From Myxacorys californica WJT36-NPBG1 (GTDB lineage: Bacteria; Cyanobacteriota; Cyanobacteriia; Leptolyngbyales; Leptolyngbyaceae), in contig JAHHHO010000004.1 in NCBI GenBank assembly GCA_019359315.1, forward strand, positions 1 through 64,000: a stretch of 64,000 nucleotides of DNA. The letters are read 5' to 3'. The translations under genes were made by a program, and so were the position numbers. The first letter of the stretch is position 1; every line of letters begins with the position of its first letter. Positions 58,419-64,000 of the stretch are shown in pieces. A model generated the notes under the pieces. The model made no database searches, was not told the DNA's origin, and worked only from the letters and a program-made list of their open reading frames with translations.

Positions 58419-58805
58419 ATGCCTCGCCTTAAAAAGACATCGCGTACATTAGAGCGGATTGAACTGCGCGTTGCCGGACTGCAAGCCATCGATCCGCTGA
58501 TGAACTTTGGCGACGATCGCGACTTAAGAAACATCACTCAACTGATCGAGCAGTTACGCAACAAAATTAGTGCCTATAACACGGCGCTGTCCGTGATCGA
58601 TTCATCTAAAGCTGAGATTCACACTTTAGAAACCACGTTGAATGATCTTGCCGAAAAAATGCTGATTGGGGTGGCGTTCAAATACGGCAAAGACAGTAGT
58701 GAATATGAGATGGCCGGGGGAGTGAAGAAGAGCGATCGCATTCGCCGCAGCACCGCTAGTCGTCTTAAAGCCAAAGCAGAGGAGGTTTCTGCGACGGCTC
58801 TCTAG
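58419..58805 (+). CDS. Hypothetical coiled-coil protein
   Basis: A 128-residue protein that I do not recognise. Its middle is a strong helical coiled coil (DLRNITQLIEQLRNKISAYN, SKAEIHTLETTLNDLAEKML), and the C-terminal is basic (KKSDRIRRSTASRLKAKAEE). Cyanobacterial proteins of this size and layout exist, but I know no function. It precedes ureD by 176 bases on the same strand; no reason links it to urease. Confidence 0.75.
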   Translation: MPRLKKTSRTLERIELRVAGLQAIDPLMNFGDDRDLRNITQLIEQLRNKISAYNTALSVIDSSKAEIHTLETTLNDLAEKMLIGVAFKYGKDSSEYEMAGGVKKSDRIRRSTASRLKAKAEEVSATAL

Positions 58806-58981
58806 AATTCTAGAACGGCTATAGAGAAGGTTTGAAACCTGTAATCCTTCTTCTTTGCGGTGATAGAAATTAGAAGCAAAGCGCACTACATCTCGAATCT
58901 GCTCTTAATTCCTGCAAAAACGAATTAAAACGCGCTACGCTTAACACCAGGCTAACACCGCTTAGCCCAAGGCTTTGTTCG

Positions 58982-59839
58982 GTGAACCAACCTCATTCTT
59001 CCTCCCCCAAATCTGTCTCCACCAATTGGCACGGCACTCTATCTCTGAAGTTTGCCAACCGCAATGGTGCAACGGTGCTAACTGAGAACTTGGGACAGGC
59101 TCCTCTCAAGGTACAGCGCCCCTTCTACCCCGAAGGCAATGAAGTTTGTCACGGCGTCATTATGCACACCGCAGGCGGAATCGTGGGCGGAGATCGCTTA
59201 TCCCTCGATCTCCGCCTCCACCCCAACAGCCGCGCCCTCATCACCACCCCTGCTGCCGCCAAAATTTACCGCACGAACGGCAGAGAAGCCCGTCAGACTA
59301 TTGAGATTAACGTAGACGAAGGCGCAGTTATAGAATGGTTGCCGCAAGAAACGATCGTATTTGACGGCGCACTCTATCGCCAAGATCTGCGCATTAATCT
59401 CGCACCCAGCGCCCACTGGATCGGCTGGGACATGACCCGATTTGGACGCAGCGCCCGAGGAGAGCGATTTACCAGTGGCGAGTGGCGATCGCACACCGAA
59501 GTTTGGCAGCAGGGTCGCCCACTGTGGATTGACAGACAATGGCTTCCTGGCAATGAAGCTGTATTTAACAGCCCGCACGGACTGGCAGGATGTCCCGTGG
59601 TGGGCAGTTTTGCTTACCTTGGTCAACTTGTGAACCCCGATCTTGTGCAAGACCTGCGATCGCTGTGGTTAGGCACTGCCGGAGAAACAGGTGTCACTCG
59701 CTTGCAATCAGGATTACTGTGCCGATATCGCGGTGCTTCTACAATAGAAATGCGTCAGTGGTTTATTGCCGTTTGGCGACTAATCCGAGAAACGATGTTC
59801 GATCGTTCGGTCTGCATTCCTAGAGTTTGGCAACTGTAG
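58982..59839 (+). CDS. ureD: Urease accessory protein UreD
   Basis: Scaffold that helps UreF and UreG insert nickel into urease, 285 residues with a GTG start. Family patterns are visible: GNEVCHGVIMHTAGGIVGGD near residue 50, EWLPQETIVFDGALYRQDL, WDMTRFGRSARGE and a C-terminal LCRYRGASTIEMRQWFI. First gene of the expanded urease locus; a toxin-antitoxin pair follows 14 bases after it. UreE, F and G genes are not within the window. Confidence 0.95.
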   Translation: MNQPHSSSPKSVSTNWHGTLSLKFANRNGATVLTENLGQAPLKVQRPFYPEGNEVCHGVIMHTAGGIVGGDRLSLDLRLHPNSRALITTPAAAKIYRTNGREARQTIEINVDEGAVIEWLPQETIVFDGALYRQDLRINLAPSAHWIGWDMTRFGRSARGERFTSGEWRSHTEVWQQGRPLWIDRQWLPGNEAVFNSPHGLAGCPVVGSFAYLGQLVNPDLVQDLRSLWLGTAGETGVTRLQSGLLCRYRGASTIEMRQWFIAVWRLIRETMFDRSVCIPRVWQL

Positions 59840-59853
59840 CTGAGGTAACGCCC

Positions 59854-60159
59854 ATGCTTACTCTTCCCATCGAGCTTCCCCTCGAACAGATTACTGAGTT
59901 TTGTCAACGCAATCCCATTCGCAAACTCTCGCTGTTTGGCTCAATTTTAAGAGACGATTTCAAACCAGAAAGCGATGTTGACATGCTAGTAGAATTCATT
60001 CCAGACAGTAGAGTTGGTTATTTTGAACTCATTGGAATGGAAGTGGAGTTAACAGAAATGCTCAAGCGTAAAGTTGATCTCCGAACTCCCGCAGAAATTA
60101 GCCGCTATTTTCGTCAACGAGTCTTAGATTCTGCACAGGTCATCTATGAACATAGATGA
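59854..60159 (+). CDS. mntA: MntA-like nucleotidyltransferase antitoxin
   Basis: Minimal nucleotidyltransferase, 101 residues from the ATG at 59854, with gagg eight bases upstream; an earlier TTG at 59827 would overlap ureD. The catalytic motif is FGSILRDDFKPESDVDMLVEF, exactly GSX10DXD. MNT proteins silence their HEPN partner by adding AMP to a tyrosine. It overlaps the HEPN gene by 14 bases. Its insertion between ureD and ureA is unusual. Confidence 0.93.
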   Translation: MLTLPIELPLEQITEFCQRNPIRKLSLFGSILRDDFKPESDVDMLVEFIPDSRVGYFELIGMEVELTEMLKRKVDLRTPAEISRYFRQRVLDSAQVIYEHR

Positions 60160-60493
60160 TGATGCGCGGCTGCGGCACATGCTAGATTACGCTCGCCAAG
60201 CCGTTCGATTTCTAGAGAACAAGTCTCGTGCTGAGATGGATGCAGATGAAATGTTAACCGCTGCTTTGTTTCGTTGTCTTGAAGTTGTGGGAGAAGCCGC
60301 CTCACGAATTACGAAAGAACGTCAGAGGAAGTTGCCACAGATTCCCTGGTCAACCGTTATCAGTATGAGAAACCGCATTATTCATGGTTATTTTGATATT
60401 GATTTAGATATTGTGTGGGACACAGTAACGTATAACCTGCCGCAACTGATCGCTGACCTTGAGACTATCATTGCTGCTGATATTGAGGAGTAA
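60146..60493 (+). CDS. hepT: HepT-like HEPN ribonuclease toxin
   Basis: A 115-residue HEPN (DUF86) protein. The ribonuclease motif is [11 protein letters not shown], which fits RX4HXY exactly (Arg, four residues, His, Gly, Tyr); the Tyr is the AMPylation site in studied systems. The helical start [20 protein letters not shown] is typical. It overlaps mntA and stops two bases before ureA, so the pair is embedded in the urease operon and may share its ribosome traffic. Confidence 0.93.
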
Positions 60494-60495
60494 CC

Positions 60496-60798
60496 ATGCA
60501 ACTGACGCCCCAAGAGAAAGACAAACTTCTGATTTTTACGGCTGCCCTATTGGCAGAACGGCGCAAAGCGAGGGGAGTGAAGCTGAACTATCCCGAAGCG
60601 ATTGCGTTCCTGTCCGCCGCCATTCTAGAAGGTGCAAGAGACGGACAAACCGTTGCCGAACTGATGAATTACGGAACTACTCTCCTCAGCCGAGAGGATG
60701 TCATGGACGGCATTTCCGAGATGATTCACGAAGTCCAAGTCGAGGCCACCTTTCCCGACGGAACAAAGTTAGTCACCGTTCACAATCCCATTCGCTAA
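60496..60798 (+). CDS. ureA: Urease gamma subunit
   Basis: Smallest structural subunit of the nickel enzyme that splits urea, 100 residues. The pattern [23 protein letters not shown], then [23 protein letters not shown] and [15 protein letters not shown] matches UreA throughout. It starts two bases after hepT and is followed by ureB after 24 bases. Confidence 0.97.
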
Positions 60799-60822
60799 CG
60801 TCACGCAAGGAGTAGCACCACT

Positions 60823-61167
60823 ATGATTCCAGGAGAACTGTTTGTCGAAGACGGCGAGATCGAACTGAATGCTGGGCGGGAAACGTTGACACTATCAGTG
60901 GCAAATAGCGGCGATCGACCGATCCAGGTCGGCTCTCATTTCCACTTCTACGAAGTCAACGCCGCGTTGGAGTTTGACCGAGAGCAAGCCCGTGGACTGC
61001 GGCTCGATATTCCAGCTGGAACAGCCGTGCGATTTGAGCCAGGAGATACGCGAGAGGTGACGCTAGTTCCCCTAATGGGTACTCGTGAGGTGTATGGCTT
61101 CAATGCCAAGATTGAAGGAGCCTTAGACGCAAAACCAAAGAAGAGTAAAAAGAAGTCTAAATCCTAG
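60823..61167 (+). CDS. ureB: Urease beta subunit
   Basis: Second structural subunit, 114 residues. Visible patterns are [39 protein letters not shown] with the conserved histidines, [19 protein letters not shown] and a Lys-rich tail ([11 protein letters not shown]). Usually ureC follows at once; here two other genes come first (61191-62940). Confidence 0.97.
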
Positions 61168-61190
61168 TATCTATTCGTTGGAGTTTGGCA

Positions 61191-61871
61191 ATGAACTTGA
61201 AAGATTTGCGCCGTTTGAACTCAGAATATCTCGCCACCATCAAAAGCGTCATGACGCTGCTCAAAGATCCTGAACAAACCGAGTCAGTTTACGATGTGGA
61301 AGATGCATTACGGCGATCGCATCCGCAAACGCTCGCCGCATCCGTAAAATACATGTTGGCTGATCCGCAAGTTGCACAGCTTGCTCAAGAGCGCTACCTG
61401 CCTCCGGCTCCAGACATTGCAAAGCTCCTAACGTATCCGCCTCACTCCTTGGGATTCGCCTTTGCCAATTACATCTCATCGTCAGGATTCGATCCGGGGT
61501 TCTATCGAAAACTCGATGTGGTTGATGATGCGACCTATCTTCTGTTTCGCCTTAGACAAACCCACGACATTTGGCACGTCGCGACCGGATTTAGTGTCGA
61601 TGTTCCCGGAGAACTCGGTCTCAAATCCTTTGAAGTCGCTCAAACTCGTCGCACGTTGTCTGGTGTTCTGATCGCGGGAGCCTTCCTGCAAACCTTGCTT
61701 AGCAATCCAGATGGATTAGATCGATTGCTCGATCGCATTGCCGCAGGCTACCGCATGGGTGCAAAAGCAAAGCCATTACTTGCCCAAAAGTGGGAAGACC
61801 ATTGGGAAAGATCGGTCGAGGATATTCGCAAAGAGTTGAATATCCAACCGATGCCAGTCTACGTTCCCTAA
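61191..61871 (+). CDS. Coq4-like zinc-motif protein
   Basis: A 226-residue protein matching the Coq4 family. The zinc motif HDxxH-x11-E is exact: His125, Asp126, His129 and Glu141 (HDIWHVATGFSVDVPG then E). The surrounding FRLRQTHD and ELGLKSFEVAQ also fit. Coq4 serves ubiquinone synthesis in eukaryotes and some bacteria, but cyanobacteria make plastoquinone, so the role here is unknown. The ATG at 61191 is preferred to the TTG at 61185. It lies between ureB and ureC. Confidence 0.88.
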   Translation: MNLKDLRRLNSEYLATIKSVMTLLKDPEQTESVYDVEDALRRSHPQTLAASVKYMLADPQVAQLAQERYLPPAPDIAKLLTYPPHSLGFAFANYISSSGFDPGFYRKLDVVDDATYLLFRLRQTHDIWHVATGFSVDVPGELGLKSFEVAQTRRTLSGVLIAGAFLQTLLSNPDGLDRLLDRIAAGYRMGAKAKPLLAQKWEDHWERSVEDIRKELNIQPMPVYVP

Positions 61872-62034: not shown

Positions 62035-62940
62035 GTGAACGCTAGAAGATTCAGTTCTCGTAAAAAAACACTTCAAACGCTCATCGCCTTTGGGATAGTC
62101 ATCATTGTAATATTAGTCGCGATCGACAATTGGCTGCCCTACTCACTCCTCAGCCATTACAAACGCCCGGTTGCTTTTCAGCCTCAAATTCTAAGGCAAT
62201 ATGGTGCGATCGCAGAAAACATACAGTTCTCTATTGCAGATGGAACTCAAGTTTCTGGATGGTGGATTCCAGCAAAAACCAGATCTTTAGAACCTCCTAT
62301 TACGTTGATCTTGCTTCACGGACTCGGTGGCACTCGGCAAGACTTGTTAGAGTTTGCGCTTCCGCTCTGGAAAAAAGGTATGAGTCTAGCCGCAATCGAC
62401 TTGCGAGGACACGGAAACAGTAGTGGTGAATTTTTCACCTACGGCTTTCACGAATGGAAGGAAGTCAGTGGACTAATTGATAATTTGCAGCAGCGAGGAG
62501 TCAAACGTATGTCTGTGCTCGGTATTTCGGCAGGCGGAGTAGTTGGCATATCCGCTGCGGCTCGTGACACCCGCATTCACTCTCTTGTCACCATTGGTGC
62601 ATTTGCCGATCTTGACCAAATGATTACCCGACGATCACCCTGGTTGCCAGCGCTTTGGCGCGATCGCGCCAAAGCGAACGCAGAACAAATGGGGCAGTTT
62701 CTGATCAAAGACGTATCTGCGATCGCTAACGTGCAAAAAATAACTTGTCCTATTCTCATCGCCCACGGAACCGCAGACGACTACATTCTTTTTGAAGATG
62801 GGCAGTCGCTCCACCATTCTGCACCTGAGCCTAAAATGTTCTATGCAATCCAGTCTGCCAATCACGCCAACATGCTTTGGAAAGAAAAACAGAAACTTCA
62901 AATACAGATTTTTAACTTCATTCAAACCAACACTAAATAA
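62035..62940 (+). CDS. Alpha/beta-hydrolase with a membrane anchor
   Basis: A 301-residue hydrolase of the BAAT/YqkD-like group, starting with GTG. A helix at about 12-33 (TLIAFGIVIIVILVAID) should anchor it. The fold is clear: LLHGLGGTRQDLLEF (oxyanion), DLRGHGNSSGE, nucleophile elbow GISAGG (Ser), acid Asp in HGTADDYI, and His in SANHANM. No specific substrate is suggested. It is between the Coq4-like gene and ureC, with a 217-base gap before ureC. Confidence 0.9.
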   Translation: MNARRFSSRKKTLQTLIAFGIVIIVILVAIDNWLPYSLLSHYKRPVAFQPQILRQYGAIAENIQFSIADGTQVSGWWIPAKTRSLEPPITLILLHGLGGTRQDLLEFALPLWKKGMSLAAIDLRGHGNSSGEFFTYGFHEWKEVSGLIDNLQQRGVKRMSVLGISAGGVVGISAAARDTRIHSLVTIGAFADLDQMITRRSPWLPALWRDRAKANAEQMGQFLIKDVSAIANVQKITCPILIAHGTADDYILFEDGQSLHHSAPEPKMFYAIQSANHANMLWKEKQKLQIQIFNFIQTNTK

Positions 62941-63157: not shown

Positions 63158-64000
63158 ATGAGTTACCGCATGAATCGCCGCGCCTACGCTGAAACGTTTG
63201 GTCCGACTGTAGGCGATCGCGTCCGATTAGCCGATACGGAACTGATCATCGAAGTCGAACAGGACTACACCACCTATGGTGAAGAAGTCAAATTTGGCGG
63301 CGGCAAGGTGATTCGCGATGGCATGGGACAATCTCCCATCACAAATGAAGATGGAGCCGTCGATGCCGTGATTACCAATGCGCTGATCCTCGATTGGTGG
63401 GGCGTGGTCAAAGCAGATATCGGCATTAAAGACGGTAAGATTGCGGCGATCGGCAAAGCCGGAAATCCTTACATTCAAGATAATGTCACCATTATCATTG
63501 GGCCTGGAACCGAGGCGATCGCAGGCGAAGGTATGATCCTCACCGCTGGCGGCATTGATACACACATTCACTTTATTTGTCCGCAGCAAATCGAAGTTGC
63601 GATCGCTTCGGGCATCACGACCATGATCGGCGGCGGAACTGGGCCTGCGGCAGGCACAAACGCTACGACTTGCACCCCTGGGCCTTGGAATATTTACCGA
63701 ATGCTGCAAGCTGCCGATGCCTTCCCAATGAACATTGGATTTTTGGGCAAAGGCAACGCGAGCCAACCCGCCGCTCTCGAAGAACAAATTAAAGCAGGCG
63801 TAATGGGCTTGAAGCTCCATGAAGATTGGGGCACGACACCCGCTGCGATCGATACTTGTTTAACCGTCGCCGATGAGTACGATGTGCAAGTCGCAATTCA
63901 CACCGACACCTTAAATGAAGCCGGATTTGTGGAAGATACGATCGCAGCATTTAAACATCGCGTCATTCACACGTATCACACTGAAGGCGCAGGCGGCGGA
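63158..64000 (+). CDS. ureC: Urease alpha subunit, partial
   Basis: The catalytic urease subunit, cut by the window end (281 codons shown of about 570). Start ATG at 63158, with agagga upstream. Nickel-site pieces seen are the first His pair in [14 protein letters not shown], the carbamylated Lys in [10 protein letters not shown] and the His in [10 protein letters not shown]. The N-terminus [22 protein letters not shown] is standard. It is separated from ureAB by two non-urease genes and has its own 217-base upstream gap, so it may have a separate promoter. Confidence 0.97.

Follow-up and report, generated by a model that had tools for sequence, protein, structure and literature searches.

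The urease locus and its inserted gene pair

The window analysed here is the whole stretch of 64,000 nucleotides at positions 1 to 64,000 of contig JAHHHO010000004.1 of Myxacorys californica WJT36-NPBG1 (assembly GCA_019359315.1, genome G000 in what follows), and towards its end it carries a run of urease genes, all on the forward strand. The run starts with ureD for a urease accessory protein (58982..59839, with a GTG start; PF01774, 1.1e-66), and between this gene and ureA, for the urease gamma subunit (60496..60798; PF00547, Urease_gamma, 3.2e-47), there lies a pair comprising mntA for a minimal nucleotidyltransferase, the antitoxin (59854..60159; PF01909, 7.8e-15 and PF18765, 4.2e-13), and hepT for a HEPN RNase, the predicted toxin (60146..60493; PF01934, 1.6e-24). 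The open reading frames and the Pfam matches agree on a complete MNT/HEPN pair at this place, as the preliminary description had stated. Further downstream come ureB (urease beta; 60823..61167; PF00699, 3.4e-47), a Coq4-like gene (61185..61871; PF05019, 1.2e-28), an alpha/beta hydrolase gene (62035..62940; PF12146, 5.4e-16) and ureC (urease alpha), which begins at 63158, runs beyond the window at 64000 and has a full length of 569 aa.

The Coq4-like gene is an odd neighbour for urease and recurs 3' of ureB in a number of relatives, and the alpha/beta hydrolase gene, whole in the window, is internally deleted in the congener G027 (L093 5893-6303). Six other loci (L106, L109, L036, L030, L091 and L092) have differing open reading frames inserted between ureA and ureB, some of which resemble, by eye, glutathione transferase, DJ-1/PfpI and acetyltransferase.

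The pair is fitted tightly between its neighbours. From the ureD stop to the mntA ATG there are 14 bases, a distance conditional on that start since an in-frame TTG at 59827, inside ureD, is an alternative; the last 14 nt of mntA are also the first of hepT (60146..60159), and from the hepT stop to the ureA ATG there are 2 bases. Both of the spacings given earlier are thus confirmed from the coordinates of the reading frames. A putative ribosome-binding site, GAGGT, precedes mntA (59842..59846), and that of ureA would be the GAGGAG at 60485..60490, lying inside the two sense codons that precede the hepT stop. The latter may predate the pair, because G035, in which no pair was detected, has the identical GAGGAGTAACC 5' of ureA.

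Sequence scans of 58700-61400 found promoter-like and terminator-like sites at chance level (3 against 2.3 expected and 4 against 2.6 expected, respectively), and between 59839 and 60496 the scans returned none of either kind, so that no separating promoter or terminator of the sort that had been asked about was seen there. Together with the gaps and the overlap this upholds the view that the pair is built into the urease operon in a tight translational register, and mntA-hepT is probably co-transcribed with urease, to judge by the short spacings, the overlap and the ribosome-binding-like site of ureA within hepT. The further proposal, that nitrogen state controls the toxin, found no positive evidence: no exact GTAN8TAC site, which we take to be the NtcA-type motif, occurs near ureD, and the six exact copies in the window, a number no higher than chance, all lie in the stretch from 9287 to 45705, well away from ureD.

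Identity of the pair

Two motifs, GSX10DXD and RX4HXY, are described as defining Class I HEPN/MNT pairs (PMC7641770), and both, reported as intact in the preliminary description, can be read directly from the translations: GS-(10)-DVD in MntA and R-(4)-H-G-Y in HepT. In an alignment of HepTs from which L069 was left out, R75, H80 and Y82 are invariant in all 21 sequences. HepT scores 86.4 bits against PF01934 (cut-off 23.5) and so qualifies as an RX4HXY HEPN toxin, and MntA scores 55.5 bits against PF01909 (NTP_transf_2; cut-off 21) and so qualifies as a GSX10DXD MNT protein; the NCBIfam type VII equivalogs HepT_toxin (NF047751, 33.4 bits) and MntA_antitoxin (NF047752, 46.7 bits) stay below their curated cut-off of 60 bits. 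MntA also matches models of the PADLOC candidate defence system PDC-S09, the best at 1.8e-25, and HepT matches no PADLOC model.

The predicted structure of HepT (pLDDT 91.1, pTM 0.84) gave as its 12 best PDB matches in Foldseek HEPN toxins of HEPN/MNT pairs, with probabilities of 0.92-1.00 and, in 11 of the 12, a TMq of 0.65-0.70; we read this as a HEPN fold, with E values of just 0.02-0.19 and none below 0.001. By domain, motif, gene order and predicted fold mntA-hepT is then a Class I HEPN/MNT (HepT/MntA) module, and its toxicity is predicted. The MntA proteins of this family are known to adenylylate the tyrosine of RX4HXY on their HepT partners, and here too HepT would be an RX4H RNase silenced, as predicted, by MntA in the same manner.

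Among relatives that bear a name, Myxacorys almedinensis A is the closest, with HepT at 92%. The genome of the window has six HepT-like places, the mntA-hepT locus included, and in one of the others (L005, G000:C119:48981-49268) the matching sequence is interrupted by an in-frame stop.

The slot among related urease loci

Family and order coincide here, both comprising the same 42 genomes. A HepT-like match to the window HepT is found in 38 of them, and in six (G000, G027, G011, G025, G026 and G014) the match lies directly upstream of ureA. The ureA gene itself is present in 40 of the 42, and in all 37 with a completeness of at least 90%, whether or not the pair survives there. Of 44 family ureA places 39 were examined, five having been dropped before counting, namely that of G008, which is truncated where its contig ends, and a divergent second ureA in each of G033, G035, G037 and G038. 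In these four genomes, all of one genus, the second ureA is 55-58% identical to that of the window and has ureB and ureC adjacent to it. The end of ureD is readable upstream of ureA at 32 of the 39 loci; at the other seven ureD is absent from the fetched stretch or displaced.

The pair or a remnant of it occupies the ureD-ureA slot at 13 of these 39 urease loci, and at the remaining 26 no trace of MntA or HepT was detected in the slot. Three of the 13 have an intact pair (G000, G011 and G025), four a damaged or missing hepT (G027, G026, G014 and G029) and six hold fossils (G017, G023, G030, G040, G013 and G012).

In the second of these groups the lesions are all different. In the congener G027 hepT has lost one base near codon 6, a 5' frameshift after which an ORF of 104 aa is possible from an internal ATG; in G014 a frameshift falls immediately 5' of the catalytic motif, with mntA intact. 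In G026 a stop replaces the conserved Trp ahead of the motif, the Tyr of RX4HXY has become Phe, and in MntA the second Asp of DXD is Asn (DXN). In G029 mntA is intact and an internal deletion leaves just the first and last residues of hepT. Some of the frameshifts could be errors of draft assemblies.

Among the fossils G030 has the first residues of mntA fused straight to the end of hepT, G017 and G023 retain MntA residues ~7-33, and G040, G013 and G012 retain 3' remnants of hepT. The z values of the remnants relative to shuffled sequence are 17.1 (G023), 15.6 (G017), 10.6 (G012), 6.9 (G030), 6.6 (G040) and 5.2 (G013). A test on DNA concurs for G023, G017, G012, G030 and G013; G040 is outside its 14 best and is counted as a fossil on the protein test alone. 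Weaker signals in G233 (z 3.1), G072 (z 2.5), G005 (z 3.2) and G213 (z 3.3) were not counted.

Reading the sequences by hand alongside the rpoB trees, and treating each of the pairs G029/G030, G017/G023 and G012/G013 as a single event, we count at least seven different lesions in the family with ureA kept.

Loci outside the family

Across the class ureA is found in 334 of 388 genomes and a HepT match at 1e-20 in 71 of 388. Outside the family 80 urease loci were read, being the most window-like of the UreA matches listed, and G377 was read in addition; since G338 and G377 were fetched owing to their HepT matches, the rate of occupation outside the family is to be taken as 2 fossils in 79 loci. 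At the 42 of the 80 loci with ureD directly upstream there is one intact pair, in the slot of G338 (family f34), two fossils and 39 cases without trace; at the 38 with no ureD in the fetched stretch no clear trace was seen in the 250 bases upstream of ureA. One fossil is that of G154 (f34; z 9.1 with the HepT of G338). The other, in G048 (f8), is the weakest counted anywhere (z 3.8, DNA p 0.0067), with 0 of 1500 shuffles reaching it for a query chosen after the match had been seen.

The case of G377 (f43) is of a different kind, in that a solo hepT with an intact frame of 115 aa lies between ureD and ureA, mntA is absent, and Asp replaces the catalytic His. In the Shewanella toxin mutation of that His, or of the Arg, is reported to abolish toxicity (PMC4621449).

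With G377 there are five loci at which one gene is largely present and its partner damaged or absent (the others being G014, G027, G029 and G026), and at none of these five, a small number, does a motif-intact toxin stand without an antitoxin; the fossils do not show order. In the cases that reveal an order, the toxin seems to be lost together with the antitoxin or ahead of it, which is what a truly harmful toxin would lead one to expect.

Looked at from the side of the pair, urease genes are present at 4 of 73 scanned HepT-bearing loci, namely L004 (the window), L047 (treated as the same assembly as G027), G338 and G377, and at 8 of 30 MntA-bearing loci; these 8 are the best-scoring places, but six of them had gone into the profile, which makes the ranking circular in part. 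The question of whether relatives carry the pair far from urease, raised at the outset as a point against the linkage, accordingly has a divided answer: related pairs do exist elsewhere, but the urease-linked copies cluster in the tree described next.

Phylogeny and divergence

The six copies from the family with hepT retained cluster at 99/96 in a tree built on 65 MntA+HepT rows. G338 and G377 join this group weakly, at 95/78, as does the MntA of G029, at 87/65. A tree constrained to place eight named urease-linked rows in one clade reached a log-likelihood 5.78 above that of the free search (p-AU 0.65). On the rpoB trees traces appear in every larger branch of the family and, outside it, in f34, f8 and f43; in the second of these trees G023 was excluded as partial and G317 was found and not added, and in G247 and G341 no rpoB match was found. 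The UreD+UreA tree mostly follows the families. The distribution of traces and the trees would fit a single old insertion followed by many losses, and the traces in f43, f34 and f8 could reflect either old inheritance or transfer. That the same slot recurs in other genera and families means that the ureD-mntA-hepT-ureA arrangement is more than chance.

Divergence within the window's genus complicates a purely vertical account. Between G000 and G027 fourfold sites differ at 16 of 75 positions in mntA-hepT and at 104 of 227 in ureD+ureA+ureB (p = 0.00014), and the GC content of mntA-hepT is 0.42-0.44 against 0.52-0.55 for the ure genes. These low values make an exchange of the cassette between species possible, and a better fit than strict vertical descent; an effect of base composition could also explain the low divergence of the cassette. 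In three other genome pairs cassette divergence is not significantly different (p 0.09, 0.22 and 0.30). As a side observation, 150-nt windows show mntA-hepT (59854-60493) as an island of about 89-93% identity to the congener, with ureD at 71-85% and the genes after ureA also below the island.

For the same two genomes dN/dS is 0.106 (0.043-0.225) for hepT, taken from codon 12, and 0.163 (0.058-0.375) for mntA, with 0.058 for ureA and 0.155 for ureD as comparison, so both proteins of the pair have been under constraint.

Other toxin-antitoxin genes at urease

Two further inserts were noted. In G018, another member of the family, the ureD-ureA slot is taken by a HigB/HigA pair (L026 780-1421, read along ureA; PF05015, 3.2e-16; HTH_3, 3.5e-13). 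Directly ahead of ureC, G027 (L093 6417-7143) carries a further HEPN/MNT pair, this one of the PF05168 kind, the stop of its HEPN gene overlapping the ureC start by 4 nt; no trace of that pair precedes ureC in the window, and PF05168 has no match in the genome of the window. None of this is put forward to mean that toxin-antitoxin pairs favour urease as a site of insertion.

Origin and role of the pair

The account that we regard as probable is that a type VII-like HepT/MntA pair is a passenger in an old slot of the urease operon and has been repeatedly disarmed or lost. The pair would have entered the ureD-ureA junction without harming the translation of ureA, and the slot would since have been long occupied, the copies at the same junction forming one lineage across several genera and families. 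The toxin has been broken, deleted or catalytically disarmed many times, the remainder then decaying to short remnants; the pair would go whenever its toxin had been disarmed, and urease is kept regardless.

The preliminary description had put forward an addictive role, in which cells without the locus fall victim to the toxin and the urease genes are stabilised in this way. The window pair is intact and co-directional, and a HEPN/MNT pair of Shewanella is reported to raise plasmid retention in E. coli (PMC4621449), so such a role is conceivable in principle. However, urease is present in each of the 37 near-complete family genomes, the intact pair is confined to three of 39 loci, 26 loci are traceless and ten more degraded, and the toxin gene has gone in at least seven separate ways with ureA left in place. 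Protection of urease by the toxin is not supported by these counts, and we consider it very improbable.

More can be said for a domesticated regulator, that is for the pair, or HepT alone, coupling growth or ureA translation to the state of urease or nitrogen. The tight translational register, the purifying selection on hepT and mntA and the retention in G377 of a full-length HepT frame stripped of mntA and of the catalytic His are all as such a role would have it. Against this, most relatives lack the pair and retain urease, no NtcA-type site is close to the operon, and the presence of HigB/HigA in the same slot of G018 suggests a site that tolerates inserts rather than a role specific to HepT; such regulation appears unlikely, its positive evidence being the constraint and the G377 frame. 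A more speculative variant, which we hold to be quite unlikely, is that the cyanobacterial ureD-ureA junction is a long-term docking slot for toxin-antitoxin modules (HepT/MntA in several families, HigB/HigA in one genome), which it keeps in translational register with urease and sometimes domesticates, the HepT of G377 being a possible RNA-binding regulator of ureA.

Repeated arrival is the alternative that we treat with the least reserve, as a possibility against which the balance nonetheless tilts. The same toxin-antitoxin lineage would have been moved into the slot again and again by recombination across ureD and ureA, an idea to which the fourfold divergence and GC of mntA-hepT in G000/G027, both below those of the flanks, the patchy and wide spread in f1, f34, f43 and f8, and the HigB/HigA pair in the G018 slot lend themselves. 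Yet the remnants shared by sister genomes (G012/G013, G017/G023 and G029/G030) speak for decay in place, the low divergence did not recur with significance in the three other genome pairs, and the UreD+UreA tree for the most part tracks the families. We return to the decaying passenger as the preferred reading, with the proviso that the low dN/dS values and the intact pairs in distant genera suggest that the pair may serve usefully over the long term, so that the word passenger may undersell it.

Whether chromosomal toxin-antitoxin pairs are protectors of their neighbours, servants of the host or passengers is debated. Here one pair can be followed at a fixed site through intact, frameshifted, stop-bearing, internally deleted, antitoxin-only and disarmed toxin-only stages to short coding remnants. 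With the urease genes kept throughout, this is a natural series on which the order of decay and the toxin's cost could be tested, and it speaks against seeing such pairs as guardians of the operon that hosts them.

Relation to known systems

Among the papers listed by the literature searches, no title or abstract shown describes HEPN/MNT genes within a urease operon. Cyanobacterial ureDAB(C) clusters are described with ureD directly before ureA, as here, and with foreign genes between ureB and ureC (PMC6737895), and the words toxin, nucleotidyltransferase and DUF86 are absent from the main text of that survey of cyanobacterial urea genes.

By fold, the predicted HepT comes closest to the HEPN/MNT pair of PDB entries 7ae2, 7ae6, 7ae8 and 7ae9, presumably from Aphanizomenon flos-aquae, a cyanobacterium, from which it differs in sequence (15-18% identity) and in length (about 140 residues there). 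With HepT/MntA of Shewanella oneidensis (SO_3166/SO_3165) the window pair shares a PF01934 RX4HXY toxin, a GSX10DXD MNT antitoxin, the upstream position of the antitoxin and the overlap of the genes (PMC7641770, PMC4621449). In contrast to that system it lies inside a metabolic operon, is shorter (HepT 115 aa, MntA 101 aa), has no promoter of its own in our scan and matches the solved HepT in sequence with an E value of just 0.0096.

For the decay itself the closest precedent is the ccdO157 toxin-antitoxin system of E. coli (Mine et al. 2009, as cited by PMC2654758), which is likewise a chromosomal pair degenerating at a fixed site among relatives. That system belongs to another family and was followed in one species, whereas the present pair is seen in a urease operon across several genera and families, and here there are in addition short remnants of coding sequence and a solo toxin altered at its catalytic site. 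The decay of toxin-antitoxin pairs is thus of a known kind, and what is new in the present case is where it occurs and how complete the series is.
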